A stretch of 36,604 nt of DNA from the IMG/VR virus record IMGVR_UViG_3300025889_000379, positions 1 to 36,604 of that record, one strand, 5' to 3'. Positions 2,336-6,472 of this stretch are shown here, piece by piece; position 1 is the first letter of the stretch, and each line of letters opens with the position of its first letter. Both the position numbers and the translations under genes were made by a program. Source of the stretch: a virus. A model generated the notes under the pieces. The model made no database searches. It saw only the letters and a program-made list of their open reading frames with translations, and was not told where the DNA came from.

Positions 2336-3205
2336 ATGACAGAATTTGCAACAAAACGCAAGGGCAAGGGGGCAAGATTTGTGCGGTTTTTCCCGTCCGA
2401 CTGGAGGTCCGGGTGCATTGGCCTGACGTTCGAGCAGGAGGGCCTTTATATCCGCATTTGCTCATACATCTATGAGACCGAACAGCGCTTGTCATTGGAT
2501 GACAGGCAAGCAGCAAAACAGATGGGGGCACACACGAATGCCTACAGGAAAGTCCGTGACCAACTCGCCGCGCTCGGGAAGCTCACACAAACACCAACAG
2601 GATGGACAGTCGGCAGAGCGGAACGCGAACTCGAAGCCGCAGTTGGGCGCGCGATTTCCGATACGGAAACCGTCTCCGACCGACCGGCTCATACGTCATC
2701 GGGACGGGACACCGGCCAGGATACCGTAGGAGATACCCCCCACAATACCCCCCTAGATACCCCCATAGTATCTAGGGGGGTGTTTTCCGAAAACGCCAAT
2801 AAAAGCAATGACCCTCTTATAGAGCCAATAGCCAATAGCCAAAAAGTAACCCCCAAACCCCCTGCGGGGGCTTTTGACGATCCATCAAATTCGGAAGGAG
2901 TCGAGGTTCTGTCAGATGGATCAATCCGGCTCGTCAACGGGGTGAGGACCTTTTGGCTGGCTGAATTCGACGGCGACGAACACCGGCTAGCGCTTGCCAT
3001 CAAGCAAATCACCGTCCAGCCGAACAGCCGCCGGCCGATCAGGGCGCAGGTCGAAAGCCAGCTGGCCCGGCAAACGTCCGAACGGCGGGACCGAGACGCG
3101 CGCTATTCGGCAGCGGTCAAGCGCAATGGTGCCGACAAGGGCGGTGGGGGCGTGAATGTTGCTGACTTCATGGCCCGCATGCGAGCTGGCGAGGTGTCGG
3201 CATGA
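2336..3205 (+). CDS. DUF1376-type phage replication initiation protein (289 aa)
   Basis: The N-terminal domain (about residues 12-105) fits DUF1376. It has RFFPSDW, then a GLTFEQEGLYIRICSYIYE helix, and a GKLTQ segment before the wing. This domain is found in lambda O/YdaU-like initiators that recognise the phage origin. Residues 123-142 form a tetrapeptide repeat (x-x-D/N-T), which is the translation of a 12-bp iteron array. The C-terminal part is basic and probably recruits the helicase or its loader. The start has a GAGG site. The next gene overlaps by ATGA. The arrangement of initiator gene with embedded origin is as in lambda gene O. Confidence 0.75.
   Translation: MTEFATKRKGKGARFVRFFPSDWRSGCIGLTFEQEGLYIRICSYIYETEQRLSLDDRQAAKQMGAHTNAYRKVRDQLAALGKLTQTPTGWTVGRAERELEAAVGRAISDTETVSDRPAHTSSGRDTGQDTVGDTPHNTPLDTPIVSRGVFSENANKSNDPLIEPIANSQKVTPKPPAGAFDDPSNSEGVEVLSDGSIRLVNGVRTFWLAEFDGDEHRLALAIKQITVQPNSRRPIRAQVESQLARQTSERRDRDARYSAAVKRNGADKGGGGVNVADFMARMRAGEVSA
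2709..2840 (+). other. Candidate replication origin inside the initiator gene
   Basis: ACACC/ATACC-led repeats begin at 2709, 2721, 2733, 2745 and 2757, an exact 12-bp period. The 14-base arms at 2747-2760 and 2768-2781 are perfect inverted repeats (CCCTAGATAC core) around a 7-base loop. They are followed by an A/T-richer stretch with CCAATAG direct repeats at 2825-2838. Iterons plus an adjacent low-GC segment within an initiator gene is the lambda-type origin layout. Inference from architecture. Confidence 0.6.
2858..2875 (+). terminator. Hairpin with T-run inside replication gene
   Basis: CCCCC (2858-2862) and GGGGG (2866-2870) form a short hairpin followed by CTTTT. It looks like an intrinsic terminator but lies within the coding sequence just after the candidate origin. 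It may attenuate transcription or simply border the origin. Confidence 0.35.
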
Positions 3206-3783
3206 GGGCGAGTGAATTTATTGGGCGGTTATCACGCCACTACGGCAAACGCCACGCGTCCGATCAAGACATGATGGAGTGGTATACGGACATCGAAGCG
3301 ACTATTGGCCGGACAGACGCTAACGTGCTGCATCGTGCATTCGAGTTGATCCGCGATGAATGGGAAGAAAGATCATTCCCATTGCCGGCCCAGCTTCGTA
3401 AATTCATCGATCGCGCGGCGCAGCAGCTGCACCCGGAATTGCCCGGTGAGCATCACGGCGCACATAGGTCACTCCGCGCACGCGACACACCGGAACAGAT
3501 ACGCCAGTGTGATGAAGCAAGAGCGTGGCAAACATCCGTGATCGCTCAATATGGGTCTTGGGCGCAATACTGGCGTGTCACAAAACATCAGTGGCCGGAA
3601 GGTCGAGCGAAGAACGAAGCCCCAGCCACAGAAGCGGAGCGTTGGCGGGATGTGGAACAGCGAGCATTCGCGGCAATTCAAAGCGGACCAAACAAACATC
3701 TGCACACGCGGCCAATGACAGACGCTGAGCGAAAACTTTATCATCGGCAGCAACAGCGCATGACAGGGGAGCGAGACGAATGA
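3202..3783 (+). CDS. Hypothetical protein following the initiator (193 aa)
   Basis: The start overlaps the initiator stop as ATGA. The N-terminal helical region (SEFIGRLSRHYGK, then RAFELIRDEWEERSFPLPAQLRKFIDRAAQ) resembles helical N-termini of phage replication accessory proteins that sit in this slot. I do not see Walker motifs, so it is not an obvious DnaC-type ATPase loader. The C-terminus is basic and Gln/Arg-rich (RKLYHRQQQRMTGERDE). By position a helicase-loader or primosome adaptor role is plausible, but that is inference. It overlaps the next gene by 4 bases. Confidence 0.65.
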   Translation: MRASEFIGRLSRHYGKRHASDQDMMEWYTDIEATIGRTDANVLHRAFELIRDEWEERSFPLPAQLRKFIDRAAQQLHPELPGEHHGAHRSLRARDTPEQIRQCDEARAWQTSVIAQYGSWAQYWRVTKHQWPEGRAKNEAPATEAERWRDVEQRAFAAIQSGPNKHLHTRPMTDAERKLYHRQQQRMTGERDE

Positions 3784-4472
3784 AAAAAAATGATGTGTCA
3801 GCGAAGGTAGCTAGAGCTTTGCGCAGTCTTGCCTTCATCGAAGATCTTCAATTTGATGAAAAAGTGGAAGCGTTGAATGCCATTCGTGAAAAATTGCATG
3901 ACATGAGCCCATTTAACGGGGAACCGGTCGATTTGGTGCGGTGGGTGAAGTCGGATACGGTGCGAGCCAACGACTACAATCCTAATAGTGTTGCGCCGCC
4001 GGAAATGCAGCTGTTGCGATTGTCCATCGCGGAGGATGGATACACGCAACCAATTGTCACAAATCTCGAAGAGGACGTGCGGATCGTTATCGACGGGTTC
4101 CACAGAAACCGGGTCGGCAAAGAATGCGAGGAAATCAGGCAACGGATTCGTGGCTATTTGCCGGTCGTACAGATCAGGCCATCGCAGAACGGCCGCGAAA
4201 ACAGAATGGCGGCGACGATCAGGCATAACAGAGCGAGAGGCAAGCACCAGGTTGAAGCTATGACGGCGATAGTTTTGGACCTGAAGCGCCGAAACTGGAG
4301 CAGTGAGAAGATTGGCAAGCAGCTTGGCATGGATCCTGACGAGGTGTTACGGCTGGCTCAGATTGGCGGGCTTGCTGATATGTTCCTTGATCGCGAGTTC
4401 TCCGAGGCATGGGAACCAGCTTCTACCGTCAATGAGGACGATAACCTCATAGTGGAGGATGAAAATGTCTAA
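3780..4472 (+). CDS. ibrB-like: ParB/IbrB-like nuclease-fold protein (230 aa)
   Basis: ParB-type motifs appear in order: NDYNPN (64-69), EDGYTQPIV (85-93), IDGFHRNR (104-111) and RHNRARGKH (148-156). A helix-turn-helix follows at about 173-195 (WSSEKIGKQLGMDPDEVLRLAQ). There is no partner ParA. Instead, two genes downstream lies a PAPS-reductase-family protein with the IbrA architecture. This matches the E. coli prophage pair IbrB/IbrA, known as regulators of immunoglobulin-binding protein expression. ParB folds can bind and hydrolyse CTP or cleave DNA; which applies here is not known. The start overlaps the preceding gene by 4 bases. Confidence 0.8.
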   Translation: MKKNDVSAKVARALRSLAFIEDLQFDEKVEALNAIREKLHDMSPFNGEPVDLVRWVKSDTVRANDYNPNSVAPPEMQLLRLSIAEDGYTQPIVTNLEEDVRIVIDGFHRNRVGKECEEIRQRIRGYLPVVQIRPSQNGRENRMAATIRHNRARGKHQVEAMTAIVLDLKRRNWSSEKIGKQLGMDPDEVLRLAQIGGLADMFLDREFSEAWEPASTVNEDDNLIVEDENV

Positions 4473-4875
4473 GCGCATTTATCACCACTACGAAGAGTTA
4501 GAAGAGTATAAATGCGGGATGTGGAAGATCGTTCGCGGGAAAGAGCGCAAAGAGCACGTTGCTAACGCTGCTGATCTGATGAAATCACCGTCCGATTTTA
4601 AGGAGGCAATGATGGAAGCCTTGGAGGCGTGGCCAAAATCCTGCGATGCAAATCTGACGGCTGAAAGTGTCAACCGTATAGCTTGGCTGGGCCATGCTGG
4701 ATGCTGCATCGCAACGAAATCGCCGGAAGAGGCAACGCGCGTCGCTTGGCATACACTAGATAAATTTCAGCAGGACGAAGCAAACCGGGCTGCGGAAGAT
4801 GTTTTAAACGTCTATCTTATGCGCCGTAGAAGACAAACTCAGAGCTTGATGCTGTTCGATGAGGTGGCGCAATGA
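4465..4875 (+). CDS. Middle gene of IbrB/IbrA-like cassette (136 aa)
   Basis: The start at 4465 is preferred over 4459 because GGAGG at 4454-4458 gives a 6-base spacing. The protein is largely helical, with EALEAWPKSCDANLTAESVNRIAWLGHAGCCIA in two adjacent segments and an Arg-rich end (YLMRRRRQTQSLMLFDEV). The Cys-Cys pair and the GHAG turn stand out. It overlaps both neighbours, so it should be made with them in fixed proportion. I do not recognise the family. Context suggests an adaptor or third subunit for the ParB-like and PAPS-reductase-like proteins. Confidence 0.75.
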   Translation: MSKRIYHHYEELEEYKCGMWKIVRGKERKEHVANAADLMKSPSDFKEAMMEALEAWPKSCDANLTAESVNRIAWLGHAGCCIATKSPEEATRVAWHTLDKFQQDEANRAAEDVLNVYLMRRRRQTQSLMLFDEVAQ

Positions 4876-6125
4876 CACCGACAAAGCGACCGATCGGGAT
4901 TAATGTCCTGCAAGCAGCTCAGCAACGCATCTCTTGGACGTTCGATAATTTTGAGCGGGTGTATCTGAGTTTTAGTGCCGGCAAGGACAGCACAGTCATG
5001 CTGCACCTAGTCATGGAAGAAGCGATTAAGCGTAATCGCAAGATCGGCATTCTTCTTGTAGACCTCGAGGGTCAGTATAAACTGACGATGGAGCACGCGC
5101 AACGATGCTTCGATCTCTACAAGGATCACATTGAGCCGTATTGGTGTGCGCTTCCAATCGCACTACGCAATGCGGTAAGTGTGTACGAACCGAAGTGGCT
5201 GGCGTGGGACCCGGAAAAGCGAGACGCATGGATACGCAACCCACCAGAGATGGCAATCACTCGTTCCGAGGTGTTCGACTGGTTCCACAACGGAATGGAG
5301 TTCGAGGAATTTGTGCCACTGTTCGGCGAATGGTACGCTCAAGGACAATCGTGTGCGTGCTTCGTCGGCATTCGTACTGATGAAAGCCTAAACCGTTTCC
5401 GCACGATCGTTCAATCGAAGAAGGTCACGAAAGACGGCAAGCGATATACGTCGTTGGTTAGTGAAAATGTTTACAACGTATATCCAATTTATGACTGGCG
5501 CACTGAAGATATTTGGACGTGGCACGCAAAAAACCCGGAAGCACCGAGCAACCGGCTTTACGACATGATGCACAAGGCCGGACTCAAGATATCGCAGATG
5601 CGTATCTGCCAGCCGTATGGCGATGATCAACGCCGTGGTCTTTGGCTGTTCCACATCATCGAGCCTGAGACGTGGTGCAAGATCGTGGCGCGCGTAAACG
5701 GCGCTAACGGTGGAGCGCTTTACGTTCAGGAGTGGGGCAATATCAACGGCTATCGCGGCGTGACGAAGCCGGCAAACCATACATGGAAATCGTTTGCGGA
5801 ACTGCTCGTCAACAGCATGCCGCCGAAGTCGCAGGAGCACTATCGCAACAAGGTGATGCTGTTTGAGAAGTGGTGGATGGAGCGCGGCTATCCCGACGGT
5901 ATACCCGACGAAGCGGCATACGAAATGGAAGCAGCGCGCAAAGCTCCAAGCTGGCGTCGTGTTTGCAAGAGCCTTCTACGGAATGATTATTGGGGAAAAG
6001 GCATGGGGTTCAGTCAGCACAAGTCCGACGCCTACGAAAAATACCTTGGTTTGATGCGACGCCGCAAAGAATCGTGGAATGTGCATGAAGAGCAGTTGGG
6101 ATTTGTTTTGAGGCAATCCCAATGA
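4872..6125 (+). CDS. ibrA-like: PAPS-reductase-family protein, IbrA-like with DUF3440 region (417 aa)
   Basis: The adenylate-binding P-loop of the ATP pyrophosphatase/PAPS reductase fold is clear at residues 33-41 (SFSAGKDST). It is followed by FVGIRTDES (164-172) and VYPIYDWRTEDIW (203-215), both typical of the family. The C-terminal 180 residues match the DUF3440 extension of IbrA-type proteins rather than CysH. Related enzymes include CysH, which reduces PAPS, and DndC, which works in DNA phosphorothioation. The substrate here is unknown. It ends the three-gene overlapping cassette and overlaps the next frame by ATGA. Confidence 0.85.
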   Translation: MTPTKRPIGINVLQAAQQRISWTFDNFERVYLSFSAGKDSTVMLHLVMEEAIKRNRKIGILLVDLEGQYKLTMEHAQRCFDLYKDHIEPYWCALPIALRNAVSVYEPKWLAWDPEKRDAWIRNPPEMAITRSEVFDWFHNGMEFEEFVPLFGEWYAQGQSCACFVGIRTDESLNRFRTIVQSKKVTKDGKRYTSLVSENVYNVYPIYDWRTEDIWTWHAKNPEAPSNRLYDMMHKAGLKISQMRICQPYGDDQRRGLWLFHIIEPETWCKIVARVNGANGGALYVQEWGNINGYRGVTKPANHTWKSFAELLVNSMPPKSQEHYRNKVMLFEKWWMERGYPDGIPDEAAYEMEAARKAPSWRRVCKSLLRNDYWGKGMGFSQHKSDAYEKYLGLMRRRKESWNVHEEQLGFVLRQSQ

Positions 6126-6181
6126 CCGCTACCGACCTCGCACTTGCAAAGGCCCTGGAATCGAAAATCAAAGGAGGCGTC

Positions 6182-6472
6182 ATGGACTTCCAGCACACAC
6201 ACTCAAGAGCAGACGGTCCCGACACGTCAGCAGACGCCGCGCTGGCAGCGAGGGATCTCGCCGAAGCACAGAAAGCCCGCATCCTGATTGCCATCAAGAA
6301 CCACGGCCCGATGACAAGCCATGAGATCGCCCGCCACGTCAATCTGCATGCGCACCAAGTCGGCAAACGCACGCCGGACCTCGTTGCGGACAGGCTTATC
6401 GAGGACAGCGGCGCGCGTCGGCTGACACCATCAGGACGGATGGCAACTGTGTGGCGGGCGGTCAAGCCGTGA
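6182..6472 (+). CDS. Winged-helix DNA-binding protein (96 aa)
   Basis: A winged-helix domain spans about residues 30-90. One helix starts KARILIAIKNHGPMTSHEIARHV, then come VGKRTPDLVADRLIE and a wing (GARRLTPSGRMATVW). The start at 6182 is chosen for its strong AAAGGAGG site. An earlier in-frame ATG at 6122 overlaps the previous stop as ATGA and would add 20 residues. The RADGPDTSADAA opening is typical of short phage winged-helix proteins. It is probably a transcription or replication regulator of the early-to-middle operon. Confidence 0.7.
   Translation: MDFQHTHSRADGPDTSADAALAARDLAEAQKARILIAIKNHGPMTSHEIARHVNLHAHQVGKRTPDLVADRLIEDSGARRLTPSGRMATVWRAVKP

Follow-up and report, generated by a model that had tools for sequence, protein, structure and literature searches.

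An IbrA/IbrB-like phage cassette with a third, helical subunit as a putative nucleic-acid-modifying complex

An IbrA/IbrB-type locus with a third gene

The closest described relatives of the locus treated here are IbrA and IbrB of Escherichia coli prophages, which are annotated as co-activators of prophage gene expression (PF11922 DUF3440, phrog_2302, phrog_2159). We analyzed the IMG/VR virus record IMGVR_UViG_3300025889_000379 over its 36,604 bases (hereafter, the window), which encodes phage head, portal, terminase, and tail genes and carries at positions 3780 to 6125 a cassette of three overlapping genes on the plus strand, B, M, and A in this order (open reading frame list and sequence). 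As in the E. coli pair, the IbrB-like and IbrA-like proteins (B and A) are encoded together on a phage and are homologous to their counterparts over nearly their full lengths; unlike that pair, which comes without M, the window has M between B and A, and its relatives show B-M fusions and reordering. Searches of the literature on DUF3440, COG3969, IbrAB, and phosphoadenosine phosphosulfate (PAPS) reductase together with ParB retrieved no description of the triplet. The features of the cassette are as follows (AF2, AlphaFold; HTH, helix-turn-helix; HMM, hidden Markov model).

3780..4472, plus strand: B, an IbrB-like ParB/Srx-fold protein of 230 amino acids with an HTH-like tail (phrog_2159, E=1e-71)
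4465..4875, plus strand: M, an all-helical protein of 136 amino acids from an unnamed family, proposed as adaptor between B and A (AF2; no named family)
4872..6125, plus strand: A, an IbrA-like PP-loop (adenine nucleotide alpha hydrolase) enzyme with DUF3440, 417 amino acids (phrog_2302, 6.7e-85)
5838..6082, plus strand: Ac, the approximate C-terminal helical module of A (HMM positions about 322 to 400), which recurs as a separate small gene

The start codon of B lies within the stop of the preceding gene (ATGA, 3780 to 3783), B and M overlap by 8 bases, and M and A overlap by 4 (ATGA), as a preliminary description of this DNA had read from the letters alone. An alternative in-frame ATG at 4459 would extend M to 138 amino acids.

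Conservation of the cassette

The A set was collected from four differently headed A-alignment scans, the M scan, and phage records, giving 243 sequences at 90% identity; locus counts use the 199 of these 243 dereplicated A loci that have at least 1.5 kb on both sides. The M scan of IMG/VR found 439 relatives, and the best 80 plus six genome contigs (86 loci) were examined, while two further scans with divergent M queries added 148 new loci. Each scan yields only the best 80 loci, and the fractions below describe sampled diversity, not abundance. Trees were built with FastTree.

In the first M scan, A and B were found nearby in 84 of 86 loci, the other two ending inside M or A, and in the later scans in 142 of 148, where the other six have M at most ~650 bases from the locus end. 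Taking all M-query loci together, 226 of 234 had A as well as B, the joint conservation that had been anticipated for the three proteins. Conversely, all 199 dereplicated A loci contained B and 151 contained M (46/58, 25/49, 35/37, and 31/43 in the individual A-query scans). A-B is therefore the core, and M is a frequent but not universal third subunit. The proposed unit would have sat badly with a middle gene absent or replaced in most homologous loci, and the environmental count shows M in most of them; cultured phages depart from it, with M in only 6 of 216 A-bearing records, always near A-B, in a collection made up mostly of Flavobacterium and Mycobacterium isolates. A plasmid search found no M. 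Along the A tree, the presence of M switches 10 times or more, and in 57% of cases the neighbor nearest by A ranks within the closest five by M, versus 2.8% expected. With hundreds of homologous loci, the cassette is not a chance arrangement.

The preliminary description had also called the middle gene fixed, and this did not hold: among the 151 M-bearing loci the orders were BMA (78), MAB (38), ABM (30), and AMB (5), with at least 22 switches of gene order on the A tree, and about a quarter of the A-B loci have no M. Throughout this reordering the three genes share one strand in 151/151 loci and are separated by a median of 1 bp. A fused B-M gene is present in 41 loci (7 in the first set and 34 in the later M-query loci), and the seven fusions of the first set, with 55 to 74% identity, require at least four changes on the tree. 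These fusions are open frames as read from assembled contigs, and they are too numerous and too widely spread for assembly error to be a likely source. The Ac module is also found as a stand-alone gene (~85 amino acids), and the 48 of 199 loci with this gene all have M as well. It too enters fusions, as the first two of these examples show:

L328:7249-7953: the single M-Ac fusion
L314:6941-7834: the single Ac-B fusion
L005:7829-8143 (Gaia): Ac beside M

A physical complex would be expected to leave just such a record, with adjacency maintained through reordering and with B-M, M-Ac, and Ac-B fusions, and on this comparative evidence B, M, and A very probably form one. The earlier suggestion that the three genes act as a unit is thus strongly supported, and the fusions give substance to the idea of M as a linking subunit.

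M and the IbrB-like protein

M is a previously unclassified small helical protein family. No Pfam, PHROG, or NCBIfam family scored above noise for it, also when 122 relatives were scanned; a weak Glutaminase match (0.24) and a DUF3644 match in 2 of the 122 family members were seen. The AF2 model is all-helical with a predicted local distance difference test score (pLDDT) of 97.3, and the PDB fold search with it returned nothing better than E=1.5. Its single viral fold match is a 116-amino-acid protein, nameless in the tables, and the annotated M of XCL1123 is also 116 amino acids long. Compared with its nearest relative, M is under purifying selection (nonsynonymous divergence, dN, of 0.25 with synonymous sites saturated).

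B and the IbrB of Escherichia phage PhiR5_2 share 51% identity, and A is 45% identical over 97% to IbrA of the same phage, which bears out the IbrA/IbrB homology proposed earlier. As a phrog_2159 ParB/Srx-type protein adjoining IbrA, B belongs to the IbrB family. Its DGFHR and TxRHNRARGxH motifs are invariant in 236 sequences; the former resembles the GGCHR loop of Srx. The position of the catalytic Srx cysteine is phenylalanine in 95% of the same sequences. ParB-like folds bind CTP, ATP, or GTP, and phage ParB/Srx-fold proteins are often fused to DNA methyltransferases (PMC12704722). B resembles the ParB-fold proteins that act beyond segregation (Srx, SerK, DndB; PMC12704722) in having a nucleoside triphosphate (NTP)-binding ParB-like fold without ParA; the phenylalanine at the Srx cysteine position and the strict pairing with A set it apart from them. 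A ParABS partition system was rejected: the Pfam ParB_N match of B is below the cut-off (15.7 versus 26.3 bits), and ParA is absent from the whole 36.6-kb record (PF13614 and PF01656 searched; controls 14/14), in agreement with the initial reading of a ParB-type protein without ParA.

Probable chemistry of the IbrA-like protein

A has the domain succession of IbrA over its full length, i.e., a PP-loop PAPS-reductase-like domain (PF01507 PAPS_reduct, 4e-13, 50.1 versus 22.5 bits) followed by DUF3440 (PF11922, 3e-33, 115.6 versus 25 bits). It contains SFSAGKDS, so that the PAPS-reductase fold with SxGKDS recognized at the outset stands. Across the 243 homologues, SxGKDS, D64/E66, and GIRxxES..R are invariant or nearly so, no alignment column is an invariant cysteine, and the single column with 90% cysteine is glycine in the A of the window. 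The AF2 model (pLDDT 87.9) has its best fold matches in CysH (6vpu, 1sur), FAD synthase, and CysD (8ron, 8rom, 1zun), with weaker matches to the tRNA-modifying PP-loop enzymes TtuA, NcsA, and TilS/MesJ; the best PDB sequence match is CysD 1zun.

The analogy with the sulfur chemistry of CysH and DndC, on which the preliminary description drew, is weakened by these results. A shares its fold and the PAPS_reduct domain with CysH, and it differs in having an obligate partner B and no invariant catalytic cysteine; it scores only 29 versus 165.1 bits with TIGR00434 and 30 versus 154 with NF002537, and CysH identity was rejected. DndC/DndB phosphorothioation likewise combines a PP-loop enzyme and a ParB-superfamily protein in one nucleic-acid-directed system. 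A cysteine dyad is one criterion for DndC (PMC10853773); A lacks a conserved one, the cassette has no equivalent of DndD, DndE, or DndA, and with 23.8 versus 290.4 bits for TIGR03183, DndC identity was rejected as well. PADLOC found only weak similarity of A to DndC/BrxP, and no model matched B or M. Because there is no invariant cysteine and the scores are far below the cysH and DndC cut-offs, A is unlikely to be a sulfonucleotide reductase or a thiol-relay sulfurtransferase.

CysD (the ATP sulfurylase small subunit) and FAD synthase, which require no catalytic cysteine, have the same fold as A, the PP-loop fold of adenylyltransferases of their type. A adds DUF3440 and partners the ParB/Srx-type B instead of the CysN GTPase, and at 21.1 versus 396.6 bits for TIGR02039 it at most works like CysD and is not a member of that family. 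From its modeled fold and conserved residues, A is probably a cysteine-independent adenylating enzyme.

Two other loci with related proteins were observed. In L047 (8959-9726), the M-A-B cassette is followed downstream by another PAPS-reductase-like gene, shorter and of a different type, whose product has SGGKDS and several cysteines. In Microbacterium phage Leaf (L101:91-5146), an A-like DUF3440 protein is encoded beside two glycosyltransferases, an acetyltransferase, and a methyltransferase.

Genomic setting and layout variants

The preliminary description placed the cassette directly after replication genes. One such gene is indeed upstream, separated from B by a gene (3202 to 3783) with no confident family match. 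The flanking genes of the window, which lie outside the conserved cassette, are as follows.

2336..3205, plus strand: DUF1376/primosomal-type replication gene, upstream (PF07120 9e-9, phrog_9327 4e-11)
6122..6472, plus strand: small winged-helix protein, downstream (phrog_1123 6e-15, weak MarR)

The winged-helix gene overlaps the end of A by 4 bases and is absent among the gene clusters conserved across loci. A YdaS/Cro-like regulator is found at 1224 to 1466 of the window, upstream of the replication-type genes. Sampled neighbors of M loci include DnaB, ERF, RecT, NinB, NinG, HNH, and DUF1376, a replication/recombination setting.

Three layouts were distinguished: the compact B-M-A or M-A-B (the window is B-M-A), A-(cupin)-B-M-Ac, and A-B without M. 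A cupin is present in 42 loci, including 40 of the 48 Ac loci, in 11 of which it is fused to B. In 15 of 199 loci a GNAT gene is part of the cassette or its immediate neighbor, mostly lying between M and A. Homology of this GNAT to Mu Mom was rejected, given that the GNAT profile versus Mom was not significant and that Mom matches phrog_1384, which the GNAT does not. The in-cassette GNAT and cupin suggest small-group chemistry. Among the A-B loci, an SNF2-type helicase occurs in 13 of 48 without M versus 0 of 151 with M; mutual exclusion of M and helicase is only suggestive, with a median p of ~0.06 for phylogenetically independent pairs and a helicase match in one later M-query locus. A small phrog_27058 protein adjoins the helicase in L095 and L097. 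Examples of the accessory genes are the following.

L004:6308-6697 (Pseudoalteromonas phage XCL1123) and L005:6308-7204 (Mycobacterium phage Gaia): cupin between A and B, or N-terminally fused to the ParB-like B (annotated "ectoine synthase/ParB")
L068:6311-6748, L051:6266-6730, and L090:2881-3318, among others: GNAT acetyltransferase
L095:2776-4011, L097:7171-8367, L098:2202-3401, and L099:2240-3451: SNF2-type helicase beside A-B in Streptococcus, Fusobacterium, and Flavobacterium phages without M

In Fusobacterium phage phiFN37 (L097:9763-11048), a second ParB-like gene near the A-B pair precedes one for queuine tRNA-ribosyltransferase; the two may be a deazaguanine DNA-modification module.

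Possible functions of the complex

Our best reading of the cassette is a putative phage nucleic-acid-modifying complex, to which we assign a probability of about 0.45. Nucleic-acid modification was one of three roles tentatively suggested in the preliminary description, beside defence against host restriction and control of host genes. Three features favor nucleic acid as the target, at close to even odds: the ParB/Srx-type partner, the setting among replication/recombination genes, and the small-group enzymes that accompany the cassette. M would be a helical docking subunit coupling the ParB/Srx-fold B to A, and B would be the NTP-binding and probably DNA-binding part. A, an ATP-pyrophosphatase/adenylyltransferase independent of cysteine like CysD or FAD synthase, would activate a substrate with ATP, and the activated group might then be attached to nucleic acid, with replicating phage DNA as the likeliest target; this is the weakest step. 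The resulting mark could protect phage DNA or label it as self. GNAT and cupin proteins may finish or alter the group in some phages, and the SNF2 helicase may serve some systems without M. Taken as a whole, we put forward only tentatively the scheme of a three-subunit system in which an adenylating PP-loop A is coupled to DNA via a ParB/Srx NTPase by a new-fold helical adaptor, with interchangeable GNAT/cupin finishing modules and an SNF2 variant, and which would include many of the viral "cysH" genes listed as auxiliary metabolic genes (AMGs).

Several observations weigh against a nucleic-acid-modifying complex of this kind. The fold of A does not fix its reaction type, since it matches CysH about as well as CysD/FAD synthase. 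GNAT and cupin are confined to a minority of loci, and the neighbors of the M loci were sampled without a baseline. M is missing from 48 of 199 dereplicated A-B loci (~24%) and was not found elsewhere in 42 whole records without M near A (positive control 7/7), so it is not needed for the core reaction. Distance correlations of A-M and B-M are weak (r of ~0.23, versus 0.83 for A-B), which is consistent with faster evolution of M. Finally, IbrAB reportedly activates prophage eib genes, a finding attributed to Sandt et al. in 2002; to our knowledge, this is the only experimental IbrAB phenotype.

That phenotype, from which the annotation of IbrA and IbrB as co-activators derives, is the basis of the main rival, namely that the complex binds DNA via B and turns on phage or prophage genes, with A as an ATP-dependent switch or a modifier of a regulator. 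The HTH-like tail of B and the location of A-B near Cro/antirepressor genes in several Streptococcus and Lactobacillus phages agree with it. However, the full invariant PP-loop catalytic set in 243 A homologues exceeds the needs of a regulator, GNAT and cupin within the operon fit small-molecule chemistry better, and the eib phenotype could be secondary to a DNA mark; we consider a co-activator rather unlikely. Modification of host tRNA or other RNA during infection, as by the PP-loop enzymes TilS and TtuA, could be argued from the appearance of TtuA, NcsA, and TilS/MesJ in the fold search. These matches are weaker than those to CysH, FAD synthase, and CysD, no RNA-binding domain was found, and the cassette accompanies DNA replication/recombination genes, all of which make an RNA target unlikely.

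If the complex altered or consumed a small nucleotide (a host alarm signal or an NTP) instead of nucleic acid, it would be a counter-defence or nucleotide-pool enzyme. Widespread carriage by phages and lineage-specific accessory genes fit such a role, and ParB/Srx and PP-loop folds act on free nucleotides (textbook knowledge; for NTP binding, PMC12704722), but PADLOC gave only the weak DndC/BrxP similarity of A and nothing for B or M, and we regard this as improbable. Many homologues are publicly annotated as phosphoadenosine phosphosulfate reductase and viral cysH has been termed a conserved core AMG (PMC9301287), so that A might be expected to aid host sulfate assimilation. With no invariant cysteine, a score of 29 bits where the cysH cut-off is 165, a DUF3440 domain, and B always at its side, an AMG of this type is highly improbable.

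Implications

Hundreds of phages carry the IbrA/IbrB pair together with M, and this triplet is a new variant form of IbrAB. IbrA-like genes occur widely among phages, and the label routinely given to them is PAPS reductase, which counts as a core AMG of sulfur metabolism (PMC9301287, PMC8879888, PMC8226683); our results call for caution with a cysH label for such genes. If an IbrB-M-IbrA complex without the reductase cysteines is confirmed, part of the viral "cysH" literature would need re-examination. A frequent phage system would then become directly testable, with M as the third subunit and the natural B-M fusions as a structural handle.

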